Part shown: positions 2,118 through 45,032 of the stretch, piece after piece
Layout: the number at the start of each line of letters is the position of its first letter
Numbering within the stretch: position 1 is the first letter of the stretch
Source of the DNA: Asanoa sp. WMMD1127
GTDB taxonomy: Bacteria; Actinomycetota; Actinomycetes; Mycobacteriales; Micromonosporaceae
Assembly: GCF_029626225.1 (NCBI RefSeq)
Contig: NZ_JARUBP010000001.1
Location: 6,510,001-6,574,000 of the forward strand
Length of the DNA: 64,000 nucleotides
Reading direction: 5' to 3'
The notes under the pieces: generated by a model
The model's database searches: none
What the model saw: only the letters and a program-made list of their open reading frames with translations
What the model was told of the DNA's origin: nothing
Translations under genes and position numbers: made by a program

Positions 2118-2834
2118 ATGTCCAACCCACGCAGGTCACGGCCGGACGACCCGGTCCGTGACGGGGTCACGGACCGCAACGGCACCTCCGGCAACGGCAT
2201 GCCCATGAACGGCACGACCCGCAACGGAATGCCCGGAAACGGGATGGCCGGCAACGGGATGACCGGCCGGCATGCCGCGGAGCCGATGGCGACCCAGGGC
2301 GGCCAACGGATGGAGTCGCGCTCCTACGCCGACGACGGCGGGACGACCGCGGCCGCCGACGCGGGCTACGCCCCGACGGCCCGAGCGGCGGACCCGGACC
2401 GGGTCCAGCAGAGCGCCATCTCGGCGCCCAACGCCCTGCTCCTGATCGCCGGCGTCTGGCTGATCATCTCGCGCTTCGTCTTCGACTACCCGCTGGCGGG
2501 CTCCACCGCCGGCGGCGTACTCAACGGCGTCGTGATCGGCATCTTCGTCGCCCTGCTGGCGCTGGTCCGCATGTCCGCGTACCGCTCGAACCCGATGATC
2601 AACCTGGTCACCGTCGTGGCCGGCGGCTGGATGATGGCGTCGCCGTGGGCGTTCGGCTACGCGCACTTCGGCAACAACGGCCGACCGGGCTGGAGCGACA
2701 TCATCGTCGGCGGCGCGATCATCCTGTTCGGCCTGCTCGGCTTCGCCGGCCAGGCGGTCCGACGACCGCGCTTCAGCGGCGGCCGAATGGGCATGATGAA
2801 CCGTCGCGGCGGAGGCCGCCTGGCAACCCGCTGA
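2118..2834 (+). CDS. SPW-repeat membrane protein with Asn-Gly-rich N-terminal tail
   Basis: Two ATG codons are adjacent (2115, 2118). The GGAGG at 2109-2113 is only 1 base from the first, so 2118 is preferred (238 aa). Residues about 20-50 are a low-complexity tail of repeated N-G units (GNGMP, GNGMA, GNGMT). Residues 95-225 hold four hydrophobic helices in two SPW repeats, recognised from LLIAGVWLIISRFVFDY and GGWMMASPWAFGY, each followed by a helix. SPW proteins are small integral membrane proteins of unknown function, common in actinobacteria and often linked to stress. A stress-type promoter pattern lies just upstream and a terminator-like hairpin just downstream, so this is probably a single-gene transcription unit. 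Confidence 0.8.
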   Translation: MSNPRRSRPDDPVRDGVTDRNGTSGNGMPMNGTTRNGMPGNGMAGNGMTGRHAAEPMATQGGQRMESRSYADDGGTTAAADAGYAPTARAADPDRVQQSAISAPNALLLIAGVWLIISRFVFDYPLAGSTAGGVLNGVVIGIFVALLALVRMSAYRSNPMINLVTVVAGGWMMASPWAFGYAHFGNNGRPGWSDIIVGGAIILFGLLGFAGQAVRRPRFSGGRMGMMNRRGGGRLATR

Positions 2835-2874: not shown

Positions 2875-2978
2875 CTTCGGCGCCGTCGGGCGACGGATCT
2901 TCGACCATCGCGCCCGCTTTAGGACGTGGACGGGCGCTCGGGCGCGTCGCGACCGGGTGGCGTGGTGCTTCTGCGACC

Positions 2979-3005
2979 CGACATGTTTCGGCATGTACGC
3001 ACACG
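2979..3005 (+). repeat. Dispersed 27-bp structured repeat, copy A
   Basis: The layout is heptamer cgacatg, 6 bases, its near-complement catgtac, then immediately gcacacg. Copies C (3086) and B (43652) have the same spacing with gcacatg heptamers. Copy A is the most diverged. It also sits inside a longer stem, 2979-2996 pairing with 3001-3018 at all but one position (two as G-U pairs). Confidence 0.5.
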
Positions 3006-3085
3006 CCGAGACGTGTCGGCGAACGACGAGGATGCCGACGCCGACCCGGGGTCGGCCGCGTCAACGCCGGCCGCGTCCCGCCGGT

Positions 3086-3112
3086 GCACATGATTCCGCG
3101 TGTGCGCACATG
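3086..3112 (+). repeat. Dispersed 27-bp structured repeat, copy C
   Basis: The layout is gcacatg, 6 bases, cgtgtgc, then gcacatg. The first 7 and last 12 bases are identical to the copy at 43652-43678, with no gap needed to align them. It contains the palindrome tgtgcgcaca. Confidence 0.6.
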
Positions 3113-3312
3113 TCGCGATCACCGAAGCACCAGGCCGATCCGCGCAATGGAGTGATCGCGGCCCGCCGTCAGGGCCAGCTATCCGGTGACGCCGGTGGCC
3201 GGGGCATCGAGCTGGGCCGTCCACGGCGGCTCCGACAGGTTTGGTGCCATTGCTGCTTTGTGTCGCCCCGGCGGGGCACGGCGCCGGCCGGGTCTGTGGC
3301 AGGCTGCCTCGC

Positions 3313-3798
3313 ATGCAGCAGACCGCTCACCTGGCCGGGTTCTTCGCCGCCCACGGCATCTGGAACGTGTCGGACGGGGGCGCGCTCATCCCGATGCTCG
3401 GCCACGAGGCGGCCGACGGCCAGCGCGGCATGATGCGGTTCGCCGGTGGGGACATCGCGGACGGCGCGCGGGCCGGTCGTGAGGTGCTGGAGTCCAATCC
3501 GGACGGTGCCGCGCGGGCGGTGCTGGTGGTCGACGCCTATCTGCACCTGCCGGCCGGACGGGTGGACGCGCTGATGGTCGACGCGGTGGAATACGGCCCG
3601 CGGCCGGTTTCGCTGAAGATCGCGGTCCCCTACCGTCCACAGTCGAGCGGGTTCGCCGTCCACCGACCCAAGGTGCTCCAGGTCGTCGGGGTGCCCGAGG
3701 GCGACCACCCGGCGTTGTTCGAGGCGTTCTTCGCCGGCGTCGACGCGCACGAGCCGGCCGCGGCCGTCTGGAACGCCTACCTCGACGAGTCGGTCTGA
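3313..3798 (+). CDS. Hypothetical protein
   Basis: This is a 161-residue soluble protein with no signal peptide or membrane helix. The ATG at 3313 is preferred over an earlier in-frame GTG at 3241, because translation upstream of 3313 is low-complexity. I do not recognise a family. Visible features are GGALIPMLGHEAADG near the N-terminus, AVLVVDAYLHLPAGRVDALMV in the middle (a beta-alpha unit), and a C-terminal KVLQVVGVPEGDHPALFEAFF. Codon use and protein-like composition support a real gene. It converges with the next gene, with only 5 bases between stop codons. Confidence 0.6.
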   Translation: MQQTAHLAGFFAAHGIWNVSDGGALIPMLGHEAADGQRGMMRFAGGDIADGARAGREVLESNPDGAARAVLVVDAYLHLPAGRVDALMVDAVEYGPRPVSLKIAVPYRPQSSGFAVHRPKVLQVVGVPEGDHPALFEAFFAGVDAHEPAAAVWNAYLDESV

Positions 3799-34094: not shown

Positions 34095-35267
34095 ATGGCC
34101 ACGATGGCTTCGGCCACGCGGGTGGAGAGGCTTCCGCACGTCGACAACCTGCGGGCCGTGATGGTCGCGTGGATCATCGCCGGGCACGCGCTCCTGGGTT
34201 ATTCAGCCATCGGGGGGTGGCCGTACGACGAAGTCCAGGAGACCACGTTCCATCCACGCTCGGAACTCGCCATGGCCGTCGTCGTCGGACCGACGGCCCT
34301 TTTCGTGATCGGCACCTTCTTCTTCATCGCCGGCCTGTTCGCGCCGGCCGCGATGGCACGCAAGGGCCCGGCCAAGTTCGCCGGCGACCGGGTGGTCCGC
34401 CTCGGCGTACCCTTCCTGCTCTTCGCCCTGCTCGTCTGGCCGCTGTTCATGTGGTTCGCCTACCTGGCCGCCGGCTACCGCGTCTCGTTCTGGTGGGAGT
34501 TCACCCACCGGCACCCGTTCCTCGACTCGGGCCCGCTCTGGTTCGCGGAGATCCTGCTCTACGTCTCCCTCGCGTACGCCGCGCTGGTCTGGGCCAAGGA
34601 CCGCGCCCGCGCCGAGGGCAAGGCCGACGACGTCGACGAGGGCCCGACCGAGATCGGCGGCCGCCAGCTCGCGACGCTGATCGCGCTGGTCGCGGTCGCC
34701 TCGTTCCTCGTCCGGCTGTGGTTCCCGGCGCAGAGCAAGCAGGTGCTCGACCTGCACGTCTGGCAGTGGCCGCAGTGCGTCGCGATGTTCGGCCTCGGTG
34801 TCGCCGCCGCCCGCTTCGGCTGGGCCAAGCGCGTCCCGGAACGCCTGCGCCGCGGCTGCGGGGTCGCGGTGGTCTTCACGATCCTGTCGCTGCCGGTCTA
34901 CGCCTGGACCGTGGGCCTCAGCAACCTGGCCGACGACGCCGCGCCCTACCAGGGCGGCTGGCACTGGGAGGCGCTGCTCCTGGCCACCGTCGAGGCGATC
35001 CTGGTGGTCGCCGGCTCGGTCTGGGTCCTCGGCCTCGCCCAGGACCGCCTCCAGCGCGAAAGCCCCCTCTGGCGCCGCTGCGCCCGCGGCTCCTTCGCCG
35101 CCTTCGTCCTCCAGGCCCCGGTCCTGCTCACCCTCGCGATCCTGCTGCGCCCCTTCGACCTCCCGGCCGAAGCCAAAGCGATCGCCGTCGGCGGCATCGG
35201 CGTCCCGGTCTGCTTCTGGCTGGGCTGGCAACTCATCGAACGCACCCGCGTGGGCCGCTACCTGTGA
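34095..35267 (+). CDS. Membrane acyltransferase 3 family protein
   Basis: A 390-residue protein with about ten hydrophobic helices. The N-terminal RLPHVDNLRAVMVAWIIAGHALLGY has the family's Arg and catalytic His near the first helix. FFFIAGLFAPAAMARKGPAKF and DRVVRLGVPFLLFALLVWPL are typical of acyltransferase 3 (OafA/NodX-like) enzymes, which O-acylate exported or surface glycans and antibiotics. A short charged cytoplasmic loop (RARAEGKADDVDEG) lies in the middle. AGGAG/GGAGG-like purines (ggaggggggt) precede the ATG. No polysaccharide genes are adjacent. Confidence 0.82.
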   Translation: MATMASATRVERLPHVDNLRAVMVAWIIAGHALLGYSAIGGWPYDEVQETTFHPRSELAMAVVVGPTALFVIGTFFFIAGLFAPAAMARKGPAKFAGDRVVRLGVPFLLFALLVWPLFMWFAYLAAGYRVSFWWEFTHRHPFLDSGPLWFAEILLYVSLAYAALVWAKDRARAEGKADDVDEGPTEIGGRQLATLIALVAVASFLVRLWFPAQSKQVLDLHVWQWPQCVAMFGLGVAAARFGWAKRVPERLRRGCGVAVVFTILSLPVYAWTVGLSNLADDAAPYQGGWHWEALLLATVEAILVVAGSVWVLGLAQDRLQRESPLWRRCARGSFAAFVLQAPVLLTLAILLRPFDLPAEAKAIAVGGIGVPVCFWLGWQLIERTRVGRYL

Positions 35268-35291
35268 TTCACGATCACCGCTGACTCGGGT

Positions 35292-35361
35292 CCGCGGTGG
35301 GCGCGACCGTCGCTCCCGCCAGGGACCGCTCGCTCCGCTTCGCTGCCAGGCCCGCGGTGGG
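35292..35361 (+). repeat. Repeated ccgcggtggg in the acyltransferase/sigma gap
   Basis: The decamer ccgcggtggg occurs at 35292-35301 and again at 35352-35361, either side of a gctcgctccgcttcgct stretch, in a 100-bp gap between convergent genes. It may be part of an imperfect terminator; no clean stem is visible. Confidence 0.3.
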
Positions 35362-35367
35362 ACGCGG

Positions 35368-35985
35368 TCAGCTGGTGGGGCGGAGGCGGCGGACGTCGCG
35401 ATCGGCCATGGCGGCGACCAGGTCGTCGCGGGCCCGGGCCACCCGGGAGCGGATGGTGCCCACCGGGCAGCCGCAGACCTCGGCCGCCTCGGCATAGCTG
35501 AGGCCCGCGATCTGGGTCGCGACGAACGCCTCGCGACGCTCCGGGTCGAGGGCCCGGACCAGCTCCGTCAGCGCGAACCCCGCCTCGAAGCCGGCCCCGC
35601 CCGGGTCGCGGGCGAGCTCCGCCTCGGCGACCGGCTGCCAGTCGTCGAGAGCGGCCAGCCGCGGGCGGCGGGACACGTAGCGGATGTGGTCGGCGCAGGC
35701 CCGCCGGGCGATGGCGAGCAGCCAGGTGCGCGCCGTCGAGCGGGCGTCGAACGCCGGGAGGGCGCGCATCGCCCGCAGGTAGATCTCCTGCGTCAGGTCG
35801 TCGGCCTCCCCCGGGCCGACCAGGTGCACGACGAACCGGCGCAGCTGGTGCTGGGTCGCCTCGACGAACGCGTGGGCGGCGGCCCGGTCGCCGGCCTTCG
35901 CCGCCAGGGCCCAGCCGGTGACCTCGTCGAGGTCGGCGGCGGGCTCACCCGAGCGGGGGCCGCGCGGCAGTCCGGGGAGACGCAT
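35368..35985 (-). CDS. ECF RNA polymerase sigma factor, SigC-like
   Basis: A 205-residue sigma factor. Region 2 has FVVHLVGPGEADDLTQEIYLRAMRALPAFDARSTARTWLLAIARRACADHIR (promoter melting and -10 contact). Region 4 has LDPERREAFVATQIAGLSYAEAAEVCGCPVGTIRSRVARARDDL (-35 contact helix-turn-helix). The sequence is close to the mycobacterial SigC type. It is divergent from a zinc-finger anti-sigma factor gene at 36072, which very probably inhibits it. The short divergent gap holds a GGGAACC...CGAC promoter pattern facing the anti-sigma gene. Confidence 0.9.
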   Translation of the reverse strand: MRLPGLPRGPRSGEPAADLDEVTGWALAAKAGDRAAAHAFVEATQHQLRRFVVHLVGPGEADDLTQEIYLRAMRALPAFDARSTARTWLLAIARRACADHIRYVSRRPRLAALDDWQPVAEAELARDPGGAGFEAGFALTELVRALDPERREAFVATQIAGLSYAEAAEVCGCPVGTIRSRVARARDDLVAAMADRDVRRLRPTS

Positions 35986-42387: not shown

Positions 42388-43596
42388 ATGGTCGATCGAT
42401 CAGCGGCGTTGGGCGGGGCGTTCTGGCGGTTCTGGGGCGCGTCAGCCCTGGCGAACCTCGGCGACGGCATCCGGGTGGCGGCGTTCCCGCTGCTGGCGGC
42501 GGCGTTGACCGCGTCGCCGGTCGGCGTGGCGGCGGTCGCGGCGGCCCAGTTCCTGCCGTGGCTGGTGACGGGCCTGGCGGCGGGCGCGCTGGCGGACCGG
42601 CGCGGCGCCCGCCAGCTGATAGTCGCCGCTGACGTGGCCCGGGTGCTGGTGCTGCTGACGCTGGTCGTCGCGGTCGCGTCCGGTTGGGCCACGGTGGGGC
42701 TGGTGGTCGCGGCGGCGTTCCTGCTGGGCGTCGGCGAGACGGTTCGCGACACCGCGGCGCAGACGGCGATCCCGCGTCTGGTGCACGACAGCCAGCTCGA
42801 GAAGGCCAACGGCCGCCTGGTCGCCGGCGAGATCGTCGGCAACGAGTTCGTCGGCCCACCGGTCGGCGCGCTGCTCTTCGTCGCGGGCGCGGCGCTGCCG
42901 TTCGCGGTCAACGGCGCGGCCCTGGCGCTGGCCGTGATGCTGGTCCTGTCGCTGCCGCTGAGCCTGGTCCGGGCGGCGCCGGCGACGTCGCCGTCGGCCT
43001 CGCCGGGCGTGCTGTCCGGCATGCGCTGGCTGCTCCGCCACCCCATGATGCGCACGCTGGTCGTGGTCAGCGCGGCGGTGGGCGCGGCTGACAGCGCGTG
43101 GTTCGCCATCTTCGTGCTTTACGCCCGCGACAGCCTGGGCCTCGGCGCGCTCGGCTTCGGTCTGCTCCTGGCCACCGGCGCGGCCGGCGGCCTGCTGGGC
43201 TCGTTCGCCGCGGACCGCCTGATCGCCCGCTTCACCCACCGCCCGGTCCTGGCGTGGTCCCTGGCCGTCACCGCCGGCGCGCCGGCCCTCCTGCTGGTGG
43301 CCCCGGACCGCTGGGCCGCCGCGGTCGTCGTGATCACCACCAGCGGCTCGTTCGCGGTCCTCAACGTGACGGCCCTGGCCATCCGCCAACGCGCGGTCCC
43401 GGCCGACCTCCTGGGCCGGGTGGTGGCGGCGTCCCGCACGATGACCTACGGGTGCGCGGCCCTGGGGGCGCTGCTGGGCGGGACGCTCGCGGGCACGCTG
43501 GGCACCGAGGCCCCCTTCTTCTTCAGCGCCGCGGTAGCGGTCGCCGCCACCGCGGCCTGGCTCTCCGCCTCCCGCCCCGACCCCCACCCGGCCTGA
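42388..43596 (+). CDS. MFS exporter, EntS-like
   Basis: The ATG at 42388 gives 402 residues with 12 helices. FWGASALANLGDGIRVAAFPLLAAAL, TGLAAGALADRRGARQL (motif A variant) and ETVRDTAAQTAIPRLVHDSQLEKANGRLVAGEIVGNEFVGPPVGALLF are the signature of the EntS/TetV-like MFS group that exports siderophores or macrolides. No siderophore synthesis genes are near. It is divergent from the DsbA-like gene with 68 bp between starts. Confidence 0.86.
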   Translation: MVDRSAALGGAFWRFWGASALANLGDGIRVAAFPLLAAALTASPVGVAAVAAAQFLPWLVTGLAAGALADRRGARQLIVAADVARVLVLLTLVVAVASGWATVGLVVAAAFLLGVGETVRDTAAQTAIPRLVHDSQLEKANGRLVAGEIVGNEFVGPPVGALLFVAGAALPFAVNGAALALAVMLVLSLPLSLVRAAPATSPSASPGVLSGMRWLLRHPMMRTLVVVSAAVGAADSAWFAIFVLYARDSLGLGALGFGLLLATGAAGGLLGSFAADRLIARFTHRPVLAWSLAVTAGAPALLLVAPDRWAAAVVVITTSGSFAVLNVTALAIRQRAVPADLLGRVVAASRTMTYGCAALGALLGGTLAGTLGTEAPFFFSAAVAVAATAAWLSASRPDPHPA

Positions 43597-43651
43597 GCCC
43601 AGCCGCCATCACCTCGCGGCAACCACGTGCGGGGCCAGGGCGTCCGGAACC

Positions 43652-43678
43652 GCACATGCTCATCCATGTGCGCACATG
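43652..43678 (+). repeat. Dispersed 27-bp structured repeat, copy B
   Basis: The layout is gcacatg, 6 bases, catgtgc, then gcacatg: a perfect 7-bp hairpin followed directly by a third heptamer. catgtgcgcacatg inside it is a 14-bp palindrome. Copies A and C are at 2979 and 3086. After both C and B, a cac(c/t)gaagc sequence follows within about 30 bp. Confidence 0.6.
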
Positions 43679-43723
43679 CGAAACCATGTCCGGCCACTGA
43701 AGCGACCGTCAGAGAAGACCTGC

Positions 43724-44038
43724 ATGAGCGGACAGGAACGGCTCACCGAGCCGCCAAGGCTGACGATGGCCGTGGCGTTTCCTGATGTGACCGCCCGGGT
43801 CGTGGCCGTTCTCCGCGAGATGGGCTACGGCGACCTCGCCGATTCGCTTCCAGCGCAACGCTTCTACGGCCACTGCCGCTGCAGGGACGGCTGCTCGTTC
43901 CTCCTGACCGCGCCACCAGGCAGCTCCGGCAGTCTCATGATCTGGCTGGAGGTGTCGGGCGAGGCGGTCGGTGAGGTGAGCCTCGACCCGCCGGGCCGGA
44001 TGATCACCGAAATCGAGATCGGCGATGCGCCGCCCTGA
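43724..44038 (+). CDS. Small hypothetical protein
   Basis: The ATG at 43724 (MSGQERLTEPPRLTMAVAF) gives 104 residues. The core is AFPDVTARVVAVLREMGYGDLADSLPAQRFYGHCRCRDGCSFLL, with a C-x-C-x3-C cluster (CRCRDGC) that could bind a metal. It ends with IWLEVSGEAVGEVSLDPPGRMITEIEIGD, a beta-hairpin pattern. I do not recognise the family with certainty. It sits alone between convergent and divergent neighbours, just after copy B of the dispersed repeat. Confidence 0.6.
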   Translation: MSGQERLTEPPRLTMAVAFPDVTARVVAVLREMGYGDLADSLPAQRFYGHCRCRDGCSFLLTAPPGSSGSLMIWLEVSGEAVGEVSLDPPGRMITEIEIGDAPP

Positions 44039-44054: not shown

Positions 44055-45032
44055 CTAGAAGCCTTCCGGGACGTGGGGGATGTAGTGCTCCTCGAGCATC
44101 GCGGTCTCTTCGTCGGTGAGGGTCAGGTCGAGGGCCGCGAGCGCGTCGGTGAGGTGGTGGTCCTTCGTGACGCCGACGATCGGGGCCGTCACCGCCGCCT
44201 TCGACAGCACCCAGGCCAGCGCCACCACCGCTCGGGACAGGCCGCGGGGCGAGGCGATCTTGCCCACCGCCTCGACGATCTGGCGGTCCGCGTCCTGCGA
44301 CTGGCGGTAGAGGGTCGCGCCGAAGCGGTCCGTGCCGCTGCGGTCCGTCGTGGTGTCCCAGCCGCGGGCCAGGCGGCCGCGGGCCAGTGGGCTCCAGGGG
44401 ATCACGCCGATGTTCTGGTCGAGGCAGTACGGGAGCATCTCCCGTTCCTCCTCGCGCATCAGCAGGTTGTAGTGGTTCTGCATGGCCACGAAGCGGGTCC
44501 AGCCGCCCAGGTCGGCCGCGTGCTGCATGGCGGCGAACTGCCACGTCCACATGGACGACGCGCCGAGGTAGCGAACCTTGCCCGCGCGGACCAGGTCGTG
44601 CAGCGCCTCCATCGTCTCCTCGACCGGGGTGTCCGGGTCGAAGCGGTGGATCTGGTAGAGGTCGATGTAGTCGGTGCGCAGGCGGCGCAGGCTCGCGTCG
44701 ACCTGGGTCATGATGGCGCCGCGGGACAGGCCTGCGCCGTTGGGGCCGTCGGCCATGCGGCCGTGCACCTTCGTCGCGATGACCACCTCGTCGCGCCGGG
44801 CGAGCTCGCCGAGGACCTGGCCGAGGATCTCCTCGCTCGAGCCGTACGCGTAGACGTTGGCGGTGTCGAACGTGGTCACGCCGGCCTCCAGGGCCTGGCG
44901 GATCAGCGGCCGGGAGTGCTCCAGGTCGAGGCTCCAGGCGTGGTGGCCGCGGCTCGGGTCGCCGAAGCCCATGCAGCCGACCACGATCTTCGAGATGACC
45001 AGGCCCGACGAGCCCAGGCGCGTGTATTCCAT
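44055..45032 (-). CDS. Aldo/keto reductase
   Basis: A 325-residue NADPH-dependent reductase. The tetrad is visible: Asp and Tyr in TFDTANVYAYGSSEE, Lys in VVIATKVHG, His in LYQIHRFD. Cofactor contacts are in VIPWSPLARGRL and APIVGVTKDHHL. The best match in type is the AKR11/12-like bacterial group (YhdN/Tas-like). It reduces aldehydes or ketones in the cytoplasm. It follows the permease gene on the same strand but is cut off from it by a strong hairpin at 45060, so it probably has its own promoter. Aldehydes from the nearby amine oxidase are a possible substrate (inference). Confidence 0.9.
   Translation of the reverse strand: MEYTRLGSSGLVISKIVVGCMGFGDPSRGHHAWSLDLEHSRPLIRQALEAGVTTFDTANVYAYGSSEEILGQVLGELARRDEVVIATKVHGRMADGPNGAGLSRGAIMTQVDASLRRLRTDYIDLYQIHRFDPDTPVEETMEALHDLVRAGKVRYLGASSMWTWQFAAMQHAADLGGWTRFVAMQNHYNLLMREEEREMLPYCLDQNIGVIPWSPLARGRLARGWDTTTDRSGTDRFGATLYRQSQDADRQIVEAVGKIASPRGLSRAVVALAWVLSKAAVTAPIVGVTKDHHLTDALAALDLTLTDEETAMLEEHYIPHVPEGF

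Follow-up and report, generated by a model that had tools for sequence, protein, structure and literature searches.

To our knowledge, proteobacteria have supplied good descriptions of short palindromic mobile repeats, and actinomycetes hardly any. The attC site of integrons offers a different precedent, in which two inverted protein boxes arise round a short centre when a single strand folds, and the sequence is free wherever pairing is kept. Among dispersed repeats, the REP/BIME elements are palindromes tagged with GTAG and CGTC (PMC3733652, PMC2817692), and actinobacteria are not named where the phyla with REP-type repeats are given (PMC3733652). Bacterial MITEs, ERIC included, are non-coding intergenic sequences of about 100 bp with inverted-repeat ends, present in tens of copies that differ strongly in number between related species (PMC10969869). 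Stem-loop sequence families, which are repeated intergenic sequences able to fold as stem-loops, have been surveyed in 40 genomes, and the accessible portion of that survey lists Corynebacterium and Mycobacterium as high-GC members and no Micromonosporaceae (PMC2267715). Here, we describe a palindromic repeat of the soil actinomycete Asanoa (Micromonosporaceae), encountered in a 64-kb stretch of DNA (the window). With a probability of roughly 0.7, its sites represent a short dispersed palindromic element of about 118 bp, non-autonomous and MITE/REP-like, which was amplified in Asanoa, would be recognised in trans by a putative protein, and has a diverged ACATC version in two more genera of the family.

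The first-pass annotation of the window had described three 27-bp sites, each made of three heptamers, in non-coding gaps. All three are indeed present (at 2979, 3086 and 43652, each with 0 mismatches to that pattern) and lie in non-coding DNA; allowing up to three mismatches, the window holds five pattern matches, against 0.13 expected from shuffles. The three heptamers are real but do not complete the plan, as copies 1 and 3 carry a fourth (CCGAGA-CGTGT and CGAAAC-CATGT after the third), and for this reason their reverse strands match as well, at 2992 and 43665. As the unit is palindromic, it is meaningless to ascribe a common orientation to the three sites. Its core is a 36-bp dyad, ACATG-N6-CATGT-N4-ACATG-N6-CATGT, and the 27-bp sites, genuine as far as they go, are only part of a unit that reaches about 42 nt past this core on each side.

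The core forms the middle of an inverted-repeat unit of about 118 bp (118-120). Flank k-mers place GGCGTGTCG and its complement at symmetric distances from the core, and the arm consensus reads outward as N-N-GCYC-NN-GAGACACC-NN-CCC-N8-GCGACACGCC. The information in the arms falls to background about 42 nt out, which sets the length of the unit, and the inverted arm consensus ends on both sides in the symmetrically placed GCGACACGCC, so that terminal inverted repeats are present. The window copies, located with the pattern and with a covariance model (R1) built from the 25 pattern matches in the host genome, are listed in Table 1 with their neighbours. Copy 2 is a decayed copy: it alone of the three has TCACC in place of a proper fourth box, its folding is lost, and its hairpin is no better than those of shuffles. 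In copy 3 all four boxes are perfect and the spacers are no longer complementary.

Table 1. Copies of the palindromic unit in the 64-kb window and the genes beside them.
Feature	Positions	Strand	Basis
Copy 1, whole palindromic unit (36-bp core + ~42 nt per side), arms partly decayed	2939..3058		R1 model 55.8 bits, E=1.8e-9; length from arm information profile
Copy 1 core, ACATG-TTTCGG-CATGT-ACGC-ACACG-CCGAGA-CGTGT	2981..3016		Pattern search; single hairpin fold, 4-nt loop
Copy 2 decayed core, ACATG-ATTCCG-CGTGT-GCGC-ACATG-TCGCGA-TCACC, fourth box lost	3088..3123		Marginal R1 match, E 0.7-1
Copy 3, whole palindromic unit, arms partly decayed	43612..43731		R1 model 57 bits, E=8.8e-10
Copy 3 core, ACATG-CTCATC-CATGT-GCGC-ACATG-CGAAAC-CATGT	43654..43689		Pattern search
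SPW-repeat membrane protein, upstream neighbour of copies 1 and 2	2118..2834	+	Pfam PF03779, E=5e-17
Downstream neighbour of copies 1 and 2, without Pfam match	3313..3798	+	Gene prediction, Pfam search
MFS transporter, left neighbour of copy 3 (convergent gap)	42409..43596	+	Pfam PF07690, E=1e-34
Aldo/keto reductase, right neighbour of copy 3	44055..45032	-	PF00248, E=3.9e-79

A genome-wide search, which the first-pass annotation had proposed as its check, recovered many more intergenic copies. With up to three mismatches, the 36-bp pattern occurs 25 times in the host genome (7.97 Mb), as against none for the reversed-pattern control, and R1 locates 41 separate loci at E<=1, of which the copy at 3086 scores lowest. 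The host genome thus holds about 40 copies, distributed all round the chromosome. No predicted gene contains any of the 41 loci; 22 occupy convergent, 15 tandem and 3 divergent gaps (one is without a class), as defined by a codon-usage script whose gaps may hide missed small genes. Given that convergent and divergent gaps make up 29% and 26% of intergenic base pairs, the former are enriched (p=0.0004) and the latter depleted (p=0.003). The nearest facing 3' end is at a median of 108 bp from the element. The neighbouring genes are a mix of housekeeping and other functions with none in common, and no transposase family is found among the neighbour families listed.

The N6 spacers of the unit vary between copies and species yet remain mutually complementary (for example CTTTGG/CCAAAG, TTTTGT/ACAAAA and TTCTTT/AAAGAA, with both orders occurring). 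In an unbiased set of 25 copies from the host genome (G000), 99 of 150 spacer positions pair, compared with 69.6 after shuffling and with no value as high in 2000 shuffles; in a second Asanoa genome (G001) the count is 73 of 78. The young copies of G001 fall into 11 spacer classes, nearly all perfectly paired and with few intermediates (139/144 Watson-Crick, in a set pre-filtered for overall core pairing, so that the two unfiltered counts are the safer figures). The spacers are also AT-rich (46-78%) in a genome of 73% GC. Pairing and covariation of the stem-loop exceed those of all shuffles and slides, and the hairpins of young copies are far stronger than shuffles (z -5 to -12). An alternative fold into two small hairpins, one for each ACATG-N6-CATGT, covaries less (0.179 vs 0.241) and pairs few positions inside the spacers (37/150), and one long hairpin therefore fits better. 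Folding of single copies had suggested that this pairing continues, copy by copy, far into the outer arms; in an ungapped test, the outer arms show no per-copy pairing beyond the common consensus.

How could the spacers change and still match? That half-changed spacers are nearly absent from young copies favours copying of one arm from the other. Such copying could be without function, if quasi-palindrome correction (template switching in replication) simply acted on an ordinary repeat, and the 11 young classes with few intermediates do point to copying rather than to slow compensation. Considering, however, that the same correction should make the adjoining arms symmetric in each copy, while their pairing is just what the consensus predicts, and that it leaves the spread of the repeat unexplained, we regard this account as rather unlikely. 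That the adjoining arms show no such copying suggests a process that would be centred on the 36-bp core.

The copies are distributed very unevenly. In Asanoa, R1 detects the unit in five of six genomes, with 0 to about 40 copies, and the generalised pattern ACATS-N6-SATGT-N4-ACATS-N6-SATGT gives 25, 18, 11, 10, 3 and 0 matches. This pattern is found in 12 of 355 genomes of the family and in 3 of its 44 genera, with reversed controls at 0; outside the family there are 0 matches, and among 395 genomes from across the class, searched with the exact pattern, which diverged forms would escape, the host genome alone matches and the other 394 have none. The two further Micromonosporaceae genera have the ACATC/GATGT version, patchily: one g17 genome has 24 matches and one g11 genome 15, while sister genomes have 0-2. 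The sister families recognised there (L173-L178 and L183 in g11, L165-L172 in g17) combine ACATC/GATGT boxes with different arms. At L179 and L180 (genomes G109 and G128 of g17), an ACATC-type unit lies inside a region called as one long open frame on either side, with proteins that are 85% identical, so that these copies are intragenic unless the frame is spurious. Perfect palindromes of the form ACACG..CGTGT in G136 and G124 match the model, may be ordinary hairpins, and are not counted as members, and a match in Nitrospirae (L071) is by eye an unrelated short direct repeat, ACATGTCCNCACATGGCGTT.

The Asanoa species with zero copies (G003) is nested within the genus, as sister to the carrier G005 in a tree from six gene segments. 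Assembly breaks do not account for its zero count, in that several orthologous gaps are fully assembled there and hairpin-free. In the draft G005 genome itself, several units sit no more than about 600 bases from a contig end (contigs C97, C78 and C110), and repeat-rich gaps may break short-read assemblies.

Comparison of orthologous gaps reveals presence/absence variation between species. Four sites occupied in G000, copy 3 among them, lack the element in relatives, where the corresponding convergent genes are 5-30 bp apart; the G000 gaps measure 280-476 bp. At the copy 3 locus of G003, the transporter and reductase genes abut. The blocks absent from relatives (about 280-480 bp) exceed the 118-bp unit. 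The block absent from G003 at copy 3 also contains a small open reading frame (43725-44038, + strand), just downstream of the element and without a Pfam match. One site has the unit in G000, G001 and G004 and is empty in G002 and G003; its spacers differ between the carriers and are still paired at 16 of 16 positions (with two G-U pairs in G000). At another, G000 and G001 have a unit in the same gap at differing distances, and the G003 gap is tight. Since some sites are common to two or three species, copies can persist, and the comparisons taken together indicate that they can also vanish or arise; units at the same site may reflect shared ancestry or repeated insertion, site by site. No target-site duplication was seen by eye at intact G001 copies or in the gaps compared between species. 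At one further G000 gap (L035), the flanking genes are about 11 kb apart in G005 (C78, positions 16413 and 27693) with changed relative orientation, and the gap looks like a rearrangement breakpoint.

How do these repeats relate to the systems described above? Like REP/BIME elements, they are short dispersed palindromes that lie mostly in convergent and unidirectional gaps, form hairpins and are amplified species-specifically. Unlike them, they have far fewer copies, a unit of about 118 bp and a four-box core, with neither a GTAG nor a CGTC tag in the arm or core consensus and no Y1/RAYT protein. The Y1 transposase (PF01797) is absent from the host's own genome and, in total, from five of the six genus genomes, the single match in G004 having a stop codon, and we accordingly reject membership of the REP/RAYT system. 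The size, non-coding intergenic location, inverted-repeat ends, tens of copies and strongly varying copy number are those of MITEs. Neither a target-site duplication nor a parent IS was found for the element; its host is very GC-rich, and the definition of MITEs does not include a perfect dyad core whose spacers are variable and complementary. By exact search in G001, no autonomous IS with its ends was found: pairs of the exact end motif within a few kb occur only in the element itself. The likeness to the surveyed stem-loop families lies in being repeated, intergenic and able to fold. With attC sites, as a lead only, the element shares a folded strand with inverted boxes and a spacer that is free in sequence if pairing is kept; unlike them, its copies are single and dispersed, and no integron boxes or cassette arrays were noticed.

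The REP/MITE-like option, one of three offered by the first-pass annotation, is thus the one borne out: the copies number about 40, lie between genes, are patchily amplified, are gained and lost from one species to another, and have inverted-repeat arms. Because the tag and RAYT expected of a REP element are missing, and the inverted ends and presence/absence variation of a MITE are found, we file the repeats as a new family; the best reading is of short dispersed palindromic elements that are a variant of a known general kind. No earlier description in Asanoa or Micromonosporaceae was found in the open-access literature.

For this new family, we infer both mobility and a trans-acting protein. 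Fixed boxes combined with spacers that are free but complementary would mean that a protein reads the boxes and that the two halves meet, whether through use of a folded strand as substrate or through copying of one arm from the other. This putative protein, encoded elsewhere, would recognise the boxes most likely on the folded-back strand, in which the joined halves would make one ACATS-N6-SATGT duplex with a 4-nt loop, and would then copy or move the element. Copying one arm from the other would keep the spacers complementary, and copies would survive mainly behind gene 3' ends, insertions elsewhere being removed by selection. No candidate for the recognising protein was found. A bolder proposal, which we think unlikely, is that this is minimal mobile DNA of a new class: four ACATS boxes on a folded strand would form the symmetric duplex, to be read by a putative non-Y1 recombinase or transposase of Micromonosporaceae, and each copying event would rewrite one arm from the other, so that the spacer drifts and complementarity is restored. 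The family is small, with a sharply defined core, 0 to about 40 copies among sister species and none of the usual REP transposase, and it is therefore well suited to finding out what moves such elements, and why the arms stay complementary as their sequence drifts. The element may also help to explain the expansion of gaps between convergent genes in these genomes.

Strict spacing of the four boxes implies that some putative protein reads the element, and this protein might be a DNA-binding dimer of dimers, either a regulator or a nucleoid organiser, with two 16-bp operators on one face of the DNA, offset by 20 bp or two helical turns. The register of boxes and spacers is strict in three genera, AT-rich spacers are expected of a bendable or meltable centre, and the copies encircle the entire chromosome, all in line with such a protein. 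It is difficult to see, however, why double-stranded operators would need complementary spacers, or how one nested species could be wholly without them. Moreover, the exact 16-mer ACATG-N6-CATGT occurs 46 times in the genome (control 1), with 45 of the 46 inside units; this count speaks against operators that stand alone, and we reject an operator regulon. With divergent promoter gaps avoided and neighbours of no common function, the multi-subunit regulator site that the first-pass annotation had considered does not hold as a regulon, and the broader proposal is very unlikely.

The first-pass annotation had also raised a structured RNA. In a mismatch test oriented by the nearest facing gene, G-U pairs are not in excess over A-C mismatches (41 vs 52 in the core, 127 vs 136 in the arms), a result that speaks against a sense-strand RNA hairpin being under selection, and no Rfam family matches at the element, two weak sub-threshold matches falling elsewhere in the searched loci. 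RNA hairpins that terminate transcription in both directions or stabilise 3' ends behind convergent genes, kept by compensatory evolution, are therefore very unlikely, even with the convergent-gap excess, the nearby facing 3' ends, the strong folds of young copies and the common sites that keep pairing though their spacers changed, given also that relatives manage without the element at the same gene pairs and that a terminator needs no four fixed ACATS boxes.

A second, unrelated dispersed repeat occurs in about 42 copies in the genome (79-nt probe beginning GGCGGACCCGGCAAGCGCAGCGAAGCGG). Its copy in the window (35285-35355, - strand) occupies the convergent gap of 100 bp that separates the genes at 34095-35267 and 35368-35985, and several other copies are within 100 bp of a palindromic unit (genome positions 4905249, 391160 and 3473369).
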